A program made the position numbers and the translations under genes. A model generated the notes under the pieces. The model was given only the letters and a program-made list of their open reading frames with translations. It made no database searches and was not told the DNA's origin. Positions 9,241-19,063 of a DNA stretch of 25,888 nt are shown piece by piece. Each line of letters starts with the position of its first letter. Position 1 is the stretch's first letter. The DNA is from Cochliopodium minus (lineage: Eukaryota > Discosea > Himatismenida > Cochliopodiidae), in NCBI GenBank assembly GCA_024220525.1, contig JAMYWO010000217.1, positions 1 through 25,888 of the forward strand, given 5' to 3'.

Positions 9241-12200
9241 TTAAATAAATTTGTTTCTAATTTCTTCAAGATTATCATTGTAATGAGGTTGTATGAACAG
9301 TTCATTTTTCAACAAATAAGGCACAATGTCTATCTTGTCTGAATATTCTTTAGTTGAACAAATATCAAGGAGAATGTTAATTAAAGATTCGATCGAAGGT
9401 CTTGAATTAATATCAGCTTTAGTCATTGAATCGACCATTTTTTGGATAGTTAAGTCAATTTGAATATCCCAATTTTTGATAATAAACTCAAAAGTTACTC
9501 CTAAAGAATAAATATCACCTAATAAAGTGAATAAAACTCTTTTATTGTAAATTATTAAAAAGGTCCTACTTCCGAATGATTCTTCTTTTGTGTTTATTTC
9601 TCTAGGGCTGAAAAACTCTGAAATAGTTCTAATTTTTTCCTTATTTTCTTTCAAATCATGCGAAGAACCAAAGTCAATAAAAATGTAGTAATATTGGCCA
9701 TTCTTTGAGTAAAACATGATGTTATCTAATTTTATATCTCTGTGTAAAATATCACTTTTATGAAGTTTATTGAGTTCGTTCAAAAGCAACAACATCAATC
9801 TTACAAGATTAATTTCATTGTTGAAATCAAAATCTTTAATTAATCTTTTACCAAAAGAAAATAAAGATCCTCCTTTAAACAAAAGTTAAGCAATTATTTA
9901 AATACAAATTTTTAAACATTAACCTTCTATCCATTCAATCAACAAATATTTATCTTTAATTTTGTTTATCTTATCATCCAACAGTCCTACAAAACGAGAA
10001 GTAGTCAAATTTGGCACTTTTTTTTCAATGTTTCTTAAAGTTTCTATTTCTTCATACCAAAACTTGATTGCTGTATTTCCATTATTTAATCTTTCTTTTA
10101 CAGCAACCAATGAATTTGTATTCAATTCCCTCATCTTAAAAATTCTTCCAAATCCCCCTTAACAAAATATAAAGTTTTAAAAAATGAAAACAGATCATTA
10201 AGCTGTTTAATGACATTTCACCTTGTCCAATAACTTGAACCAATGCAAGTTTATTATCAAAAAAAATATTTTTTGACATGCCTTTTTTAAACAAAAAAAA
10301 ATTATCAAAAAAAAAATATTTCAAGATTTTTTTTCTTACATTTATCACATTCTTCTATTTTATCAAGCAAACATGTCTGAATTCCACAAAAAGCACATTT
10401 AAAATTTTTGATTTTTTCTTGGACTTCGTTTTTGGGTGTGATGCTGAAAAAATCATTGATGTTTTGGATGGTTATTTTGTTGTTTTCATCAATTCTGATC
10501 TTTTCAATTTCAAAAATAATCTGTTTTGCAATTACAGGATTGATCCATTGATTGACAAATGACTGAATGGATGAATGAATAGAAGAAAACAACATGTTAA
10601 TGTCTCCTAAATCCGATTTTAATTCAATATTCATCACTTCTTGATTGTTTTTCTCGTTTTCTTTAAAAAAAGAAAGTTGCAAATGAGACTTTGTTTTTGT
10701 AACATCATTTTCAACAAATTGGAAAACGAATCCATTCATCCAATAAACTTCTTTTACCATTGTCTTTTTGGACTCATCCCCAACACAACTTTGTCTGATT
10801 CTGATGAATAGTAATTTCCAAAGAGAAGATGGTTTGAAAGGGAGGAAATAGTATATTTTCCATTCATTTTTGAATTGGTTTTGTTTTTCCATTTCAGAAA
10901 ATTTTGGTTGTTTAGAGGGAAGCAAAAGAGGCACAATAAAAGTTCTAGTAATCTAATGGGTAAATAAAATTCAAATTAAATGTCACAAAAAAACATTTAA
11001 GATTTTTTTTTTTTTACCTTTACTGAAAATCCTTCTGACAAATATTTAACAGGTTTGCTTGGAATAATGAAATCGAACTGGGATAAAAGCGCGACAAAAA
11101 TTTCGTAGAATTCTATTTTTTTCAGAATTTTGAGAAAGACGTCCAGAAGCAAATCATCTTCCGAAATGAAAACAAATTGCTGAGAAACGGCAGAATTTTC
11201 CACAATACCTTCGATTTCCAACGTAGGTTCTTTCTTGAAAATCTCTTCAACTAGCTTCTCTAAGTGATCTAATAAGTTTGAATAACTTATTTTGTCAACA
11301 TTTGATTTTTTTATCTCTTCTTTGTCTCTCCATATTTCTATCAAACTTTCTTTTTTTGAATTTCCTTTCAACCATTTAATTATTTTTGTTGTTTCAACTT
11401 TTAAAGGACTTTGGTTCGACAATTTGTTGTGAATTTCTTGAATTGACATTTGAATCTTCTTTCTTCCCATATCCAAAATTGTTTTGAAGACTAAAAAAAT
11501 TAAACTGTGTGAAATAATCTTTTAAGAAAAAATTTTTTAACCTAGATTAAACCATTGAGGATTTGCGATGATGACATCTTTTAGGATATCATTGTTTATA
11601 TAAACAATAATTCCTAATTGATTAAGGTCAGATAAAATGTTCTCCAATTCTCTTTTCTCAACCGTTTCATTGTTTTCATTCAAAATAAATGTTTTCAAAG
11701 ATTCCACACTAATAAAGGGAAACTCTGGAATATCAGAACCACCAGTATAAGTTTTTAAGTTTTGATTCGCAAAAAGATGTCTTAAGGGGTTTCTGGATTT
11801 ATATCTTTCATTTACTAATTTGAATTTTTGTTTAGACTTCGATAAGCTTTCGATTGATTTTATGATCTGCTGATGTTTCAATGTAAATTTTACAGAATTT
11901 TCAACTTTGTTATATTGTTTGGAGATCAGCTCGTAAAGTTTTTGAATCCCAGATTTTTTTAGATTGAGCTCTCTGTTCTTTGCGATGGTGAAAATAAAAT
12001 TTTCTTCTTTGAGCTTTAACTCTGTGTCATTGTAATAAATGTAGTCAATATCAAAGTATTGAAAGATGTGAAACTTTAAAGTGATATTGTTTTCTTTCAC
12101 TATTGTTGTTATCACTTTTTTAAAAAAAAAAAAATTAAAAAAATAATTGAATGAATAAGAAAAAAAAACTAATTAAAATTTAAAAAACAAATTACAGTCA

Positions 12201-14022
12201 TTAACTTCTTTGATTCTATCAAGAACCAAATATTCTATTGTTCCTTTTGAAACGGATTTTTCTTTTTGTATTTTTAAAGATGAGATCAACAAATCAAGTT
12301 TTGTGGCGATGAGAACAATAGGAGATTTGTCACCAATTTGAGTCTGCAAAAAATAAAACCAGTAAAGGAGTTTGTTTTGACTTTCCATTTCAGACAAGTC
12401 TTTGGAAATATCGAATAAAAGTAAATAAACAGAACTGCTTTGGAAGAAAAAAGAATGAATAACGTGATACTCTTCATGTCCCGCAAAATCCCAAAGAGAA
12501 TAGCAAGAATTTGTTTTTTTGTCTTCCCATTTGTACATTTCTACTCCGTGTGTCATATCTTCTTCCCTTTTATCTGTCAATACCAACCTATGTGCATTTC
12601 TGTTTTCTTTTTTATCAACAGAACCCATCAATCTTCTTTTCAATGTTGTTTTGCCAACATCCCTTTTTACGAAAAATAAAAAATGAGTTTTTTTTTAAAG
12701 GTTGATTTAATAATAAAAATTATTTTACCTGTTTCCTACAATCATTAATCTTATTCCTTCAAAAATCCTTGTCTTATTTATCAGTTCTCCTTTTTCGTTG
12801 TATTCAACGTTATATTCGAAATCATTTTTGTCAGTTAAGACTCCAATGCCAAACTTTAATCCATTTTTTATGGTTCCTATGAATAACTCTCCCTCACTCA
12901 TAACTTTTCCTCTCCCGTCCCACTCCTTTCCCTTTTTTTAAAAAAAAAAAATTAAAATTAAATCCACAATGATTTTAATCAAAAATACATATTTGTATTC
13001 TCCTTCCCAATAGACAGTTTCTTTAGATTCAAATTTTTTTGCATATCCGTGAGGTAGAAACGAACTGATGCTATCTCCTTCAAAATTAAATCCACAATAA
13101 TGAAACTTGACATTCTTGACATACTTTACAATTTTTAATTTGAATGATAAGTTCATTTCCTTTGAAACTTTGAGAAATTTATCCAAGCTGATATCTTTAT
13201 TGTTTGATTTTAGGTCTAAAATCTCGTAGAGTTTAATGGATGGAAAATTCTCTTGAATATGTTCCCGAAAACACATGACAGAGCCTTCCGGGAAAGTATC
13301 AGAAGAAATCATTTTACATAATTGATCATCCTTTGAATATTAGAAAATTTAATTAAAGCAGTTTAAAGGTGTGTTCTCAACTTACAATTTCAATGTTTAA
13401 AATGATTTTTGATTCAATGAATTTTGATACTTGTTCCTAAATGATTGAAATTAAAAATAATAAATAATAATAATTTTTTTTATCTCACCCCCAGTCCGAA
13501 TCTTAATGCATTATCGAAAGCAATTTTCAAGTTTCTCTGATTTATTAATGAACATTCTACGTATTGGAAAGCTCCTATCTCTTTGGACATTTCCATTCCT
13601 TCTTCATAGGTGATGGGAGCTCTCCCCATTCTGGATAATTCTTCAATGGTATCTGGATCATTTCTCAGTTCTAGATTAATCGCCACTAGAATCTTTTTTA
13701 CATCAGGGAGATGTTTATTTATTTCGGGGAGCCATTTCGTTTTGATGTTTTCAAATGTTGCAGGGGATACCAATGAAAATAAAAACATGATTATATCGGT
13801 CCCTTTATATGTTATAGGCCTCAATCTTTCATACTCTTCTCCTCCTGCAGTATTCCATAATTCCAAATTGACCGACTTTCCATTCACCATCACATTTGAG
13901 GTATAATTATCGAACACATTTGGAACATATTCTTTTGGGAAATTATTTGTTGTATATGTGATCAACAGTTTAGTTTTCATATCTTTATAGTTATCACCCA
14001 CAACAACCAATTTTAAATTCAT
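9241..14022 (-). CDS. Rho-like/MORN/Roc-COR/kinase fusion protein (Roco family), 12 exons
   Basis: A predicted signalling protein of 1376 aa. The exons I infer (minus) are 14022-13489, 13436-13386, 13330-12989, 12931-12729, 12662-12196, 12114-11542, 11490-11018, 10952-10340, 10281-10222, 10157-9924, 9872-9570 and 9518-9241; they sum to 4131 nt. Domains in order: Rho-like (1-178); a linker of unknown type; MORN-like repeats (about 287-360); Roc GTPase with GNRDVGKT (375-382), DFAGHE (435-440) and TKLD (497-500); COR (about 533-1065, with NPQWFNLV); a cysteine cluster (1067-1086); and a kinase with GQGGFG (1104-1109), VAVK (K1126), HRDIKLDN (1227-1234), DFG (1250-1252) and DIYSLG. Roc-COR-kinase is the Roco/LRRK layout and all kinase catalytic residues are present. 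The join of the Rho exon to the rest relies on a 51-nt exon (13436-13386), in phase on both sides and without stops. If that join is wrong, a separate Roco gene would start at ATG 13312. Confidence 0.8.
9519..9569 (-). other. 51-nt stopless, 3n-length intron in the kinase activation segment
   Basis: The frame is open through this stretch, but GTAGGACC at the donor and TTTATTAG at the acceptor allow a 51-nt phase-1 intron. Removing it turns the odd insertion between ESFGS and DIYSLG into the canonical kinase spacing. Reading through would add 17 mostly hydrophobic residues just before subdomain IX. I treat it as an intron. Confidence 0.7.
13489..14022 (-). other. Rho-family domain with altered nucleotide-binding motifs (first exon of the fusion)
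   Basis: The exon reads as a Rac/Rho protein nearly end to end: EYVPNVFDNY, NVMVNGKSVNLELW, RLRPITYKGTD, FSLVSPATFENIKTKW, PITYEEG and SKEIGAFQYVECS. The Rac P-loop GDGAVGKT is replaced by GDNYKDMKT, one residue longer and without the glycine before lysine. The switch I threonine is Asn (VPN for IPT), DTAGQ is NTAGG, TKLD is INLE and CSAL is CSLI. Since the rest is well conserved, this looks like selection on shape without GTP hydrolysis rather than a decayed gene. There is no C-terminal CAAX box because the frame continues into the next exon. Confidence 0.85.
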
Positions 14023-14234: not shown

Positions 14235-16498
14235 TTAAGCATTCAATTCAAAAGGGAATCGAATAGGTGGCCAAGGTTTTCTGATCTCCTGCCCATATCT
14301 AATCAAAAATCTGTCCATGGAGTGGATAAAAGGGTCGATTTTGCCGCAGAAGTTGTTCATGGAGGAGATACGGTTGGACAAGGACTTAGGAACAGGAGAA
14401 GGAAGGTCAACATACAAAGGGTTGTAGAATTCGTTCTTTCTAAACAAAAGGTTGTTAGCCAAAACATAAGAATCCATAGAAGTGATGAACTCTCTAGCAT
14501 TTTCTAATTTGGAGATCATGTCGTCTATAGTGTATTCGACTAAAAAGAAATCAACTCTGTCAATTGGTTGATCCTTGTAGACTGCACAACAGGTGCCGTT
14601 TCCGTTACAGATGTTACATTGGTCGAAGGTGCCGTTGCAGGGAGGCACGCATTCGTTATTTCCCCCACATTGTCCACAGCTGTCCACTATCTTGTTGGAG
14701 AAGGCCACTTGATCGCATCCTTTGCAAGAGCTTCCATCTCCGTTACATACACCACAAATATCCAATACACCCCCTGAATTAAAAAAAATGAATACAATTA
14801 TGATATTGCTTTGTTGTATACCAATTAATATTCATAAATGCACGAGAAATTATAGAATGATTTTTTACCTTTTCCATCACATGAGAGTGGGCAAAGAGTA
14901 CGATGTTTTCCTTTATATGGTTCATAACCGTGGTATTTGTTGCTATCAGGGCTTCCAAAGATCGAACCAGCGCTCTTCTTATAAGGTTTGGTTGGTTTTG
15001 GTTTTCCTGGTTTGTGAGGAGGCACCACAGGAAGCGAGGTGTTTCCACCGCAAACTCTGCACAAATCTTGATCTACACCTGTATGGCAAACAGTTTGAAA
15101 TACGAGCACAGCAGGCCCAGAAGGTTCGGGAAAAGATCCGTTGTTACGTGCTTCATAATATACAAGATCTACTCCCGCGATTTGACCAGGGACATATTCA
15201 ATCACATTTGTCAAGTGATGGGTTCCAATGTTGAGTGGCAAATCAGCCTTGGTGATCTCTCTTCTTATGTTTTTGAATTTGTTGTCTCTATAATCGCTCC
15301 ACAAGAACTTTGCATCGGTGTTTCTCACGATCTTGGTGATGTACATATCCACCCCGTTTGGATTCACCAAAGGTCTGCTGGTTACTGTAAATCCTTGGGT
15401 AGATACGGCAGGGATAGGCCAAGATTTCATATCGCTTTCTTTCCAGATCACATTGAAGTTTAATTCTTCACCAATGATCACCTTAGGAATTCCATTGCTT
15501 CCTATCACAATGTTGGCTGAGAAATCTGGTGGAGGCAATCCATAAAAGTCTCCCAATGATTCTCCAAATGTATGATAGGATACCAATCCCTCACTGTTTC
15601 TTGGCACTCCTCCATGGTAAAATTGTGCCACTTCATCATCTGAACGTGCTTTTCCCCATATTCTTATTTCATCCATATCTCCAATCCAATATTTGAGCAA
15701 ATGATCTTGATTATCAAAATAACCCAATGTGATTGGAACACCTAAAATTTGATAAGGAAAATACATTAAATCTTGTCTGTACAATAATAATAATTTATAC
15801 TCATAACAATATATCAATGAATCATAATGTTTTTTTGGAATTTTCATTTTTTTTAAATATTTATTGAAAAATATTTTTCATTATCGAAAAAAATAAATTT
15901 TTTTACCAGGTTGTCTCAATCTTCTTTGCCCGTTACAGTTAGGAGAGGATGCACCCCATAGAGCAGCATCAACCAAAATACCATCAATAAATACTTTTGC
16001 AATACCAGTTTCTACTCCAACATCATTTCTCCATTTGACAGTTACAGCTGCATGAGTCCATCTATCTTGGATGACTCGGTAAGTGTTGAGCATTGGATAA
16101 AAATTTGGTTGATGAACAGCAGTATAATAACCATAGTTTACATATGATCCACATCCAGTAAAAAAATTTATTGCATTATTCCATTGCACTTCCAAAAGAA
16201 ATTCACATTGTCCATTATCAGTATATAGGGGATTTTTATGATCTAATTTATGTTTTGCAATAAGAGGTCTATATTCGCCTCTTCCTGTTCTCTTTCTAAA
16301 CCATAACTCAATAGTAAAATCTTCTCCCATTTTCTCATCGTATATTTCTGGATTTGAAAGTTGTATAGCAGTATTTCCAGTGAATCTAATATGATTATCT
16401 GCTGCTCCAGATATAGCAGTATTTGGATTAGTTGTGCTGTATACACATACAATCACAAATACGAACAGTAGAAATACTTTCTTCAAATATCCATTCAT
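14235..16498 (-). CDS. Secreted LamG-like, cysteine-rich protein, 3 exons
   Basis: A predicted extracellular or cell-surface protein of 667 aa, perhaps for adhesion or matrix. The exons I infer are 16498-15907, 15741-14869 and 14773-14235 (2004 nt, all junctions phase 1). Residues 1-21 form a clear signal peptide (MNGYLKK then LLFVFVIVCVYS). A LamG/concanavalin-like domain spans about 30-270: FTIELWFRKR, RWTHAAVTVKW, AKVFIDGILV and, after the first intron, GDMDEIRIWGKARSDDEV, a hallmark of LamG-type lectin folds. A beta-rich region with no family I recognise follows, then a short Pro/Lys-rich stretch (PPHKPGKPKPTKPYKK). The cysteine-rich part has ICGVCNGDGSSCKGC, SCGQCGGNNEC and QCNICNGNGTCC, the CGVCNGDGSSC style known from ADAMTS cysteine-rich regions and many amoebal surface proteins. 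No C-terminal membrane anchor is seen; the tail is about 110 polar residues. A 9-10 A run sits directly before the ATG. Confidence 0.85.
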
Positions 16499-16647
16499 TT
16501 TTTTTTATTTTTTTGACCTTTCAATTCAACGTGAAAAAAAAAATTTATTCAAGAAAACAAAAAAAATCAGAGATTACTTCAAGATCAAGTGAAATTATAT
16601 AGAATCATATCAAAGAGGTGAACACATCTTCATGGAAATAAAGTTCT

Positions 16648-19008
16648 TTAAAAAATAAATATTTTCTCTTTAATAAACTCTTTTTCGAAATCTTCCAAAT
16701 CCACCTGGTTTGAATTTCTCTTGATTGTATTAAAGGCAGCTTTTCTACAAAAGTTTTTGATATCTGCTCCACAGAAACCATGCATCTTGCTGATGAGATA
16801 ATCCATCTTATCTATCACAGATTGAGAACAAGGAATTCTATTCAATTCTTGGGTCAAAATGGATTTGATAGCTTTGTTGTCTGGTAAAGGCACATAAATA
16901 GATCTACTGAATCTACCTTCAGTTAACAAAGAACTGTCAATTGCTTCGGGACAGTTTGTCGCAGCGAGAACTACAACCTAAAAGAAAGAAAAAAAAAAAA
17001 GAATTGTAAAGAATTTCTTGGAATAGAATTTTCTAAAAATTGGCTCAATAAAGTTTATAAAAAATATTTTTACTTTTGAATCAAATGTATTTATAAGATC
17101 CATTTCGGTCATTAGCTGTGACACAAGCTGTTTGTCCCATTGACTCCCACTTTCTCTGTCACCAAAAATGGCCTGAATCTCATCGATGAAAATGATGGTA
17201 GGAGCAAAAATTTTGGCTTTTTTAAACACATCAGTCAAGAGAGATTCAGACTTTCCAATTTCCGAATTGATCATCTCACTGATGTTGATATAGATAAAAT
17301 TGGAGTTGGAATGGTGAGCAGCAGCTTTACACAACATTGATTTTCCTGTTCCTGGTTTTCCATAGAGCAATATTCCATTGGAAGGAGTAATTCCAAACTT
17401 GGAGTAGAGTTGATGGAGATTTTTGGAAGGAGAAATGACTTTTTTCAATTCTTCTTTGATTTCGTCTAACCCTCCAATATCATCCCACTTGATGTCGGGT
17501 ATCTTGATATTGACCACGAGACTGTTGGAACGGTTCTTTTTGAAATCTTTGGCGGAGAGATGGAAATGTTCGGTTTTGACTTTCACCAGTTTCTCTTCTG
17601 TGGTTTGCTTTTTGTGAACATCAAATGCAATCAAAAATGCTTTGTGACAAATCTTTTCCAAATCGGATCCAACCAACCCATGGCAAAATTTGTCACTGAA
17701 AGAGTTGAGATCTTCTACACTCGCTTCCAGATCAAACTCGTTTGTGACAAAACTTTTGAGGATGTTTTCTATGCATGATTTCATTATGATCCTCCTTCTT
17801 TGGGGAAGGGGTACTGTCAATTCAAACTCTTCCTCACACATGTTTCTGATCTCTGTGTGGAGATCTTTGGATTCTCTTGATATGGCAACAAAAAGCACAG
17901 GGATATCCTCTCTCCTCACCAATCTTTCCAATCCAAGCAAGAAATGAGATAAAAGGGCCAATTTATCTTTTTCCCTATCTTCATTTTTGAATAATTCATA
18001 ATCATCCAACAAAATCACCGAAGGAAACATCTTTTCTGCCAATTCAAAGATTTTTGTGACAGAATATTTCAAAGCTTTTATATCTGTAGAATTATTCGCA
18101 ATCATATTTATATTCTCCCAATTGAGATTGAAGAGATTGATGCCCTTTTGGAAGACCATGCTGGTGATTATCTTTGATTTCCCCGTACCTTGTTGACCAC
18201 AAAGAAATAAGCTCTTGCATTTACTCTTCCTATCTATCAATCCATTGAGGAAGATCCCAAAGATATTCCTGAAATCATCATAGCTATCATCTATCACTCC
18301 AATAGGATTTGTCTGCGAATATAAATTGCCTATCTGAAGATTTGATTTTTCTAGAAAGGGTATACTTGTTAGTGATGGCATATAAACAATCATATTGGTC
18401 TCAACATCCAATATTCTCCAATCTATTTCATCATCTTCAATCCCTTCCTCTTCCCAAAACACCCTTATTTTTGTGGTTGAACTATTGAGTAGAGGAACTT
18501 TAATTTTTTTTCCTCTCTTTATGAATTTGATTTTTTCCTTGAGATATTCTTCTATTGCTTTTCCACTTGAATAAATCAATTGACCAAAATTATTTTCGTT
18601 ATTCGATGTGAATAATTTGTAAGGAACTATTATTCCCTTGGGTATTGATCTCAAATTTTCTTTTTCTATCAATTTAACTTGGAAATCATCTGTCCCTCCT
18701 ATTATCAACTGCTTTTTCTTTATCTCTTTGAAGATATTGGAAGATAAATAGATGATGTCATCCTCATTTTTATGTATTAGATCTATTTCTGCCCATAATC
18801 TCAATATATAGGTCATTTCTTTCGAATCATTTTGAGGTATTAATTTTATGTAACATCCCATAGATGTTTTAAAATTCAATCTTTTCCATCCTTGAGGAGA
18901 TACAAATGCAAAGAAGACATTTGGATAATGCAATCTCTTCATCTTTTTCTTCTCATAAATATCTCTCTGTACCATTTTCTCTTGAAATTCTTTTATATGG
19001 AACATCAT
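16648..19008 (-). CDS. Double-AAA ATPase, Cdc48-superfamily; possibly Pex1-like
   Basis: Two exons, 19008-17074 and 16977-16648, give 754 aa. Type II AAA proteins form hexamers that unfold or remodel protein complexes using ATP. Domain D1 has Walker A GQQGTGKS (about 271-278) and Walker B VILLDD, with Asp-Asp in place of Asp-Glu. It lacks the usual AATN and arginine-finger motifs (AISR instead). D2 is fuller: WDDIGGLDEIKEEL, Walker A GKPGTGKS (about 550-557), Walker B IIFIDE (about 605-610), then after the intron VLAATN and EGRFSR with the arginine finger, and GFCGADIKNFCRKAA. A D1 Walker B ending LLDD with a degenerate second half of D1, ahead of a canonical D2, resembles the peroxisomal import ATPase Pex1. 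However, the N-terminus is much shorter than in human Pex1 and I do not recognise it firmly. The start is ATG 19008, preceded by an in-frame TGA. It shares a 55-bp divergent promoter with the next gene. Confidence 0.85.
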
Positions 19009-19063
19009 TAGAGATGTCAAAAGTATTCAAGATTTGATTATTCTCAATTTTTTATTTAAAAAA
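19009..19063. promoter_or_regulatory. Very short (55 bp) divergent promoter region
   Basis: Only 55 bp lie between the two divergent start codons (19008 on minus, 19064 on plus). It contains TTTTTTATTTAAAAAAA next to the plus-strand ATG. No defined factor site is recognised. Confidence 0.5.

Follow-up and report, generated by a model that had tools for sequence, protein, structure and literature searches.

Contig C217 of the Cochliopodium minus assembly (44,654,751 bases, 598 contigs) was analysed over positions 1–25888, a stretch of 25,888 nucleotides (nt) that we call the window. Its minus strand carries a gene model of 12 predicted exons, which opens with an ATG at 14022, closes with a stop ending at 9241 and encodes a single open chain of 1376 residues. 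Along this chain a Rho/Rac-like domain (the head) is followed by a linker, a MORN-like region, a Roc GTPase, a COR-like region and a protein kinase; all 11 introns are of the GT..AG type and 51–81 nt long. A paralogue of the gene lies on contig C108 of the same assembly. Head and kinase very probably belong to one gene, and the head is probably a pseudoGTPase, its fold being assigned by homology.

The head, 178 residues long, is encoded by exon 1 (13489–14022, like all exons on the minus strand). Exon 1 ends with ...NALRFGLG at a phase-0 donor and reads on into exon 2 (13386–13436), a linker exon with the product EQVSKFIESKIILNIEI. The introns on either side of exon 2 (intron 1, 13488–13437, 52 nt; intron 2, 13385–13331, 55 nt) are both GT..AG and of phase 0; the junctions 13489/13436 and 13386/13330, which an earlier reading of this DNA from its letters only (the sequence-only reading) had proposed, are thus exact in the gene model, and the paralogue has retained these two introns. 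Exon 3 (12989–13330) spans the region between head and Roc. Its N-terminal part has no known fold and its C-terminal part is MORN-like; the frame has no Pfam match, and resembling stretches lie upstream of other Roc loci. Exon 4 (12729–12931) encodes MORN-like repeats, assigned with the help of relatives, and then the first strand and the P-loop start of Roc (FEGIRLMIVGNR). The remainder of Roc, with DFAGHEE and TKLD, is in exon 5 (12196–12662), and joining exons 4 and 5 produces the P-loop GNRDVGKT. The COR-like region begins in exon 6 (11542–12114), goes on through exon 7 (11018–11490), placed by the gene model and the paralogue, and ends in exon 8 (10340–10952), where its C-terminal part is followed by a cysteine set (CxxC...CxxC). 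These cysteines (10340–10420), which precede the kinase, are present in both copies and may bind zinc as a candidate zinc knuckle. The kinase starts in exon 9 (10222–10281) and continues with the N-lobe in exon 10 (9924–10157; GQGGFGRIF, AVK), HRDIKLDN and DFG in exon 11 (9570–9872) and the C-lobe (DIYSLG) up to the stop in exon 12 (9241–9518).

The catalytic modules were recognised with good scores. Roc reached 60.7 bits on a single exon frame and 110.8 bits on the spliced chain (Pfam, cut-off 27), with the best stretch at residues 370–500. Roc domains of the ROCO family carry GxxxxGKT, DFAG and TKxD, and GNRDVGKT, DFAGHEE and TKLD are all present here, as expected of a member of this family. 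The best solved relatives are the LRRK2 Roc and PDB entry 3dpu, titled 'Rab family protein', which we take to be CtRoco; the ROCO rows among the PDB matches extend over Roc only. The kinase gave 44.4 bits on the single frame of exon 11 and 87.7 bits on the spliced chain (Pkinase, best stretch 1100–1294), and it lies C-terminal to the COR-like region, as in group 2 ROCO kinases, with GQGGFG, AVK, HRDIKLDN and DFG. Both Roc and kinase motifs look intact. A Pfam scan of the spliced protein with a maximal E-value of 10 found no leucine-rich repeat (LRR). Since no LRR was found and the COR match is sub-threshold, ROCO-type is the name we use for the protein; we do not count it as a strict member of group 2, although in its core it appears group-2-like. 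When the region from linker to MORN was compared with PDB profiles, nine weak rows were returned, the best of them a sulfotransferase (E 0.22), with MORN4 at E 4.5. That exon 3 and the last part of exon 2 might form a ubiquitin-like domain was considered by eye and rejected, as the idea has no Pfam support.

The C108 locus provides the main evidence that the fusion is real. Matches to the window exons lie there on one strand: Rho at 109041–109577 (69% identity), Roc at 107689–108186 (81%) and kinase at 104534–105175 (62%). The resulting model has 1416 residues and 12 exons in the same domain order, intron phases agree with the window gene at all 11 junctions, and exons 2, 3, 4, 9 and 10 are equal in length in both copies (51, 342, 203, 60 and 234 nt, respectively). 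The two proteins are identical at 931 of 1368 aligned residues. The ratio of nonsynonymous to synonymous substitution rates (dN/dS, Nei-Gojobori, window gene against paralogue) is 0.18 overall, 0.24 for the Rho head (residues 1–178), 0.20 for 196–376, 0.13 for the Roc part (377–560), 0.175 for 561–900, 0.173 for 901–1115 and 0.15 from 1116 to the end. The proposal of the sequence-only reading that one gene fuses a Rho domain to a MORN-Roc-COR-kinase protein is therefore borne out by the order and phases kept in the paralogue, with MORN and COR sub-threshold, and we hold the fusion to be real with high confidence. A single mRNA would then carry the whole chain.

Two readings of the same exons divide the chain otherwise. 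If these were neighbouring genes, a small Rho gene would end at the TAA at 13482–13480 and a MORN-Roc-COR-kinase gene would start in exon 3. Exon 1 read unspliced does reach a stop, after GLGVR in the window and after GLGVKYN in C108, and a methionine in exon 3 (residue 202/203) is conserved. Such Rho-only products, however, would end without the CAAX-type motif found in all 14 other nearly complete Rho open reading frames (ORFs) sampled from the host; the intervening exon 2 has 51 nt, phase 0 on both sides and 10 of 17 residues identical in both copies; and a relative on contig C185 has a single unbroken frame of 592 residues that covers ankyrin and MORN-like repeats as well as a Ras-type head. 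We set separate genes aside as very unlikely, given that the paralogue retains exon 2 with its two flanking introns and that the product of a Rho gene alone would have no CAAX. Intron 1 itself is non-coding, as its lengths differ between copies (52 and 63 nt) and both copies contain an in-frame stop. It could still have a role if both forms were made, its retention producing a free CAAX-less pseudo-Rho and its splicing the headed kinase. The shortness of the intron and the stop met after 2 and 4 codons would suit such a switch, but stops are common in retained AT-rich introns, which makes this a weak argument, and we consider the production of both forms improbable.

The Rho domain, which from the letters had seemed nearly full-length, is full-length within exon 1, with a Pfam Ras match of 118.7 bits over residues 4–174, also the best Ras stretch on the spliced chain. 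Human Rac1 (E 1.4e-63) is the best of its solved relatives, and it is 57% identical to host Rac (101/176). To describe its nucleotide-binding motifs we used a set of 12 key residues in Rac1 numbering, chosen by us; the alignment at the P-loop is slightly uncertain. The window head keeps 5 of the 12, with 59% identity elsewhere, and the C108 head 8 of the 12, with 71%. In the host ORFs L010b, L018, L020 and L021 (62–65% identity), L016 and L017 (72–76%) and L008 (91%), 11–12 of the 12 are kept; the first four of these ORFs are about as diverged as the fused heads. Both fused heads have losses in the same two motifs. The P-loop has one extra residue and has lost G15 (GDNYKDMKT in the window and GDKGNYMKT in C108, against GDGAVGKT in host Rac), and G4 is lost as well (INLE and TDLE, respectively, against TKLD). 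K116 is changed to N or D, D118 to E and A159 to L or P; these three we take to be base or phosphate contacts, following Rac/Ras structural work. The window head has lost T35, D57 and Q61, which the C108 head keeps; neither head has lost K16 or T17. Neither head thus has the intact G1 and G4 by which we recognise a working Rho GTPase.

Much of the surface is nevertheless Rac-like: Y32, V36, F37, D38, N39, Y40, W56, Y64 and L67 are the same as in host Rac in both heads. Both fused heads are without CAAX. The 14 other nearly complete host Rho ORFs, a sample drawn from at least 157 Rho matches in the genome, end in motifs such as CNIL, CNIF, CNIC, CSIL, CVIF and CFMF; L022, a partial host Rho ORF, has no CAAX-type end. 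In a tree of 14 rows, whose bootstrap has not settled, the two heads form the one starred pair (99/97), another, weaker pair has 82/54 and the rest is unresolved; the branches leading to the heads measure 0.35 (window) and 0.14 (C108). With G1 and G4 degraded in each copy, the head is unlikely to serve as a second working switch. The expectation of two small-GTPase folds in one chain therefore holds for the folds, and a second functional switch probably has to be given up. We are fairly confident that the head does not cycle GTP normally, and the motif changes suggest that nucleotide binding has been lost.

A head that still binds nucleotide, perhaps locked in the manner of Rnd or with altered specificity, and that controls the kinase intramolecularly would be an alternative. 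In its favour, both copies retain K16 and T17, and C108 in addition T35, D57 and Q61; moreover, the available part of PMC5593906 counts Rnd and RGK proteins among the pseudoGTPases and describes them as nucleotide-binding. The insertion in the P-loop with the loss of G15, the changes at K116, D118 and A159, and the further absence of T35, D57 and Q61 from the window copy argue against it, and we regard it as rather unlikely. The Rho domain could also be a neutral remnant of a gene fusion that is decaying, as the longer branch of the window head compared with that of C108 might indicate. A neutral relic is hard to reconcile with a head dN/dS of 0.24 and with the absence of stops and frameshifts from either copy at a proportion of synonymous differences (pS) of 0.48, and we give it very little credence.

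Our preferred reading, which we place slightly above an even chance as a whole, is that of a ROCO-type kinase whose sensor slot is filled by a Rac-derived pseudoGTPase acting as a nucleotide-independent dock or decoy. Roc would be the working nucleotide switch of the chain and the kinase its output, and the head slot, filled differently from gene to gene, would pick the partner. The Rho head would mimic Rac independently of nucleotide and either bind a partner of the Rho pathway (a guanine nucleotide exchange factor, GEF; a GTPase-activating protein, GAP; a guanine nucleotide dissociation inhibitor, GDI; or an effector) or compete for it. Once docked, it would bring the Roc-COR-kinase engine to that partner, and the MORN-like region might place this at membranes. 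Because the head has no CAAX anchor and has retained a large part of the Rac switch surface, a dock or decoy is its most likely job, one to which we assign about even odds. The 'built-in decoy' that the sequence-only reading had suggested beside intramolecular control would fit a degenerate head better than a two-switch arrangement.

Several observations weigh against this reading or parts of it. L027, a plain host Rho-like ORF with CAAX and 35% identity, keeps 7 of the 12 motif residues, so motif loss is not limited to fused heads. Residue 66 is changed in both heads and, among the listed surface positions, 35, 54, 61, 70 and 73 are changed in the window head; identity to host Rac in switch II is 9/17 in the window and 15/17 in C108. 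Partner binding may have changed as a consequence. The COR-A match, correctly placed after Roc, has 22.1–24.1 bits against a cut-off of 35.3 (by scan, 23.8 bits on the exon 6 frame and 22.1 on the spliced chain) and is unlisted in the whole-chain scan, and MORN in the window gene scores 10.6 bits against a Pfam cut-off of 22.5. Structure predictions of exon 1 alone and exon 3 alone had a mean predicted local distance difference test (pLDDT) score of 50.3 and 45.2, respectively, too poor to use. The conserved methionine of exon 3 is a possible start of a headless form. Exon 2 taken alone has a dN/dS of 1.03, although its 17 codons are too few for this to mean much. Its nucleotide identity between copies (0.75) falls within the range of the introns (0.62–0.84; shuffled, 0.61–0.80), and as a proof of coding we rejected this measure; since it does not separate exon 2 from introns, the argument for exon 2 rests on exon length, phase and protein identity.

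The window gene belongs to a large set of related loci. A search of the genome with the Roc exon returned 113 matches merging to 72 Roc-like loci; at 6 or more of them (C131, C224, C43, C69, C395 and C92) the Roc exon has merely cross-hit a plain Rho gene. A kinase match lies within 7 kilobases (kb) downstream in 41 of the 72, and a MORN-like match (E up to ~8) within 3.5 kb upstream in 23; E is 0.01 or lower for 14 of these 23, among them the window gene and C108. One MORN match, at C472:8411–8473, has 25.4 bits, and another Roc match follows ~0.8 kb downstream. The Rho exon was likewise searched against the genome (150 of 228 candidates scored); by eye among the matches listed, a Rho match lies just upstream of Roc at 2 of the 72 loci, C217 and C108.

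The region upstream of Roc was read in two further loci, and both show candidate heads of another kind. At C22:151000–155500 (L029), RCC1 repeats (75.7 bits) precede a MORN-like stretch and Roc and are, judged by this position, a possible further type of ROCO head. At C185:6300–9800 (L030), the 592-residue frame mentioned above contains a Ras-type half-domain (85.2 bits, profile positions 63–160; closest solved relatives KRas and HRas), ankyrin (80.8 bits) and a sub-threshold MORN-like stretch (15.1 bits). Roc (32.9 bits) is just downstream, and further along the same strand are a sub-threshold COR-A match (21.8 bits, E 0.004) and a kinase match at C185:2467–2745. The exon preceding the Ras piece reads MSEFKPNISFCGAPNSGRALYINHYG; after joining it, Pfam still aligns profile positions 63–160 only (87.8 bits). 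The lysine of GxxxxGK[ST] is missing from this head, and its switch I and DTAGQ segments are either missing as well or too altered to recognise. When the C185 head was searched against the genome, at least 149 matches were obtained, and no other clear one was seen near a Roc locus, by eye among the matches listed (150 of 229 candidates scored). The nearest of those listed is a 25-bit match on C589, which contains two stops and lies 7.2 kb upstream of Roc. Exchangeable heads thus seem to occur on the MORN-ROCO kinases of this genome, apparently with two kinds of degenerate small GTPase among them. It is about an even bet that in this ROCO-kinase expansion the sensor slot has been filled repeatedly by dead small GTPases, Rac-derived in two genes and Ras-derived in another. 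If so, a kinase class would be addressed to the Rho and Ras pathways by nucleotide-independent GTPase mimics.

Other Rho-related sequences were noticed in the genome. Five Rac genes on C346, C45, C148, C3 and C182 (L003–L007) have near-identical G domains and differing tails. On the minus strand of C187:25675–57787, a span of 32 kb, there are at least 28 short Rho-like matches, most of which cover query parts 16–49, 31–81 and 79–141; 15 contain internal stops. The pattern suggests Rho-like genes arrayed in tandem that are either split by introns or decaying. The Rho-like match at C1:633719–634150 falls in a frame given as 14,711 residues; L027, which derives from this site, contains N, so that this length may not be real. 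In the window, the gene is preceded on the minus strand by three ORFs of a Cys-rich, probably secreted protein (14235–16504; weak Laminin_G_3, 25.7 bits against 27.6), which ends ~210 bases ahead of the Rho ATG, and by a 682-residue ORF with two AAA ATPase stretches (16978–19026; PF00004, 123.5 bits).

It is still a matter of debate how the N-terminal parts of ROCO kinases such as LRRK2 mediate recruitment and regulation. LRRK2, a relative of the window kinase, is the Parkinson's protein, and a ROCO-type family with a frozen copy of a small GTPase would offer a clean test of which partner the slot reads; the same family could be used to ask whether a pseudoGTPase steers Roc-COR-kinase. Rab-type EhRabX3 of Entamoeba, by comparison, is not known to carry ROCO or kinase. 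Searches of two contig collections not meant for eukaryotes say little: the Rho exon had 20 pattern matches among genome contigs and the Roc exon 8 among viral contigs, with no relative in either case.

With the group 2 ROCO kinases (LRRK1/2, Dictyostelium GbpC and Roco4, among others) the window protein has in common Roc, then a COR-like region and a C-terminal kinase. It differs from them in that no LRR was found and in what fills the N-terminal slot, a probable pseudoGTPase of Rho type together with MORN-like repeats; group 2 topology, as given in the available part of PMC6337361, includes LRR N-terminal to Roc. Partner domains named in the available parts of the literature are LRR, ankyrin, armadillo, N-GEF, RasGEF, cNB, GRAM, myotubularin, PTP and DEP (PMC6337361) and, further, WD40, RhoGEF, PH, TPR, CARD, death and TIR (PMC11378527). 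No architecture with a Rho or Ras domain is among the partners described in the available portions of these two papers and of PMC8923023 (Dictyostelids), and the word MORN is absent from the three main texts. The statement that no ROCO with a Rho-type first module had been described survived our search of the open-licence literature, which found none with MORN, a Rho-type head or a pseudoGTPase (three papers that pair ROCO with MORN concern other proteins, judged by title and opening of the abstract), although this is no proof of absence; the window gene adds a pseudoGTPase architecture that we did not find there. Like Rac1 and the host Rac genes, the head is a full domain, with Rac1 as its best solved match; unlike them, it has broken G1 and G4, no CAAX, and is fused. 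A further parallel is p190RhoGAP, whose pG1 and pG2 are, according to the available part of PMC5593906, pseudoGTPase domains with degraded G motifs inside a large protein of the Rho pathway, and so resemble the window head in being degraded small-GTPase folds within a large chain. The same source describes p190RhoGAP as a RhoGAP with a further GTPase domain that does bind GTP, whereas in the window a putative pseudo-Rho, 57% identical to host Rac, heads a ROCO-type kinase.

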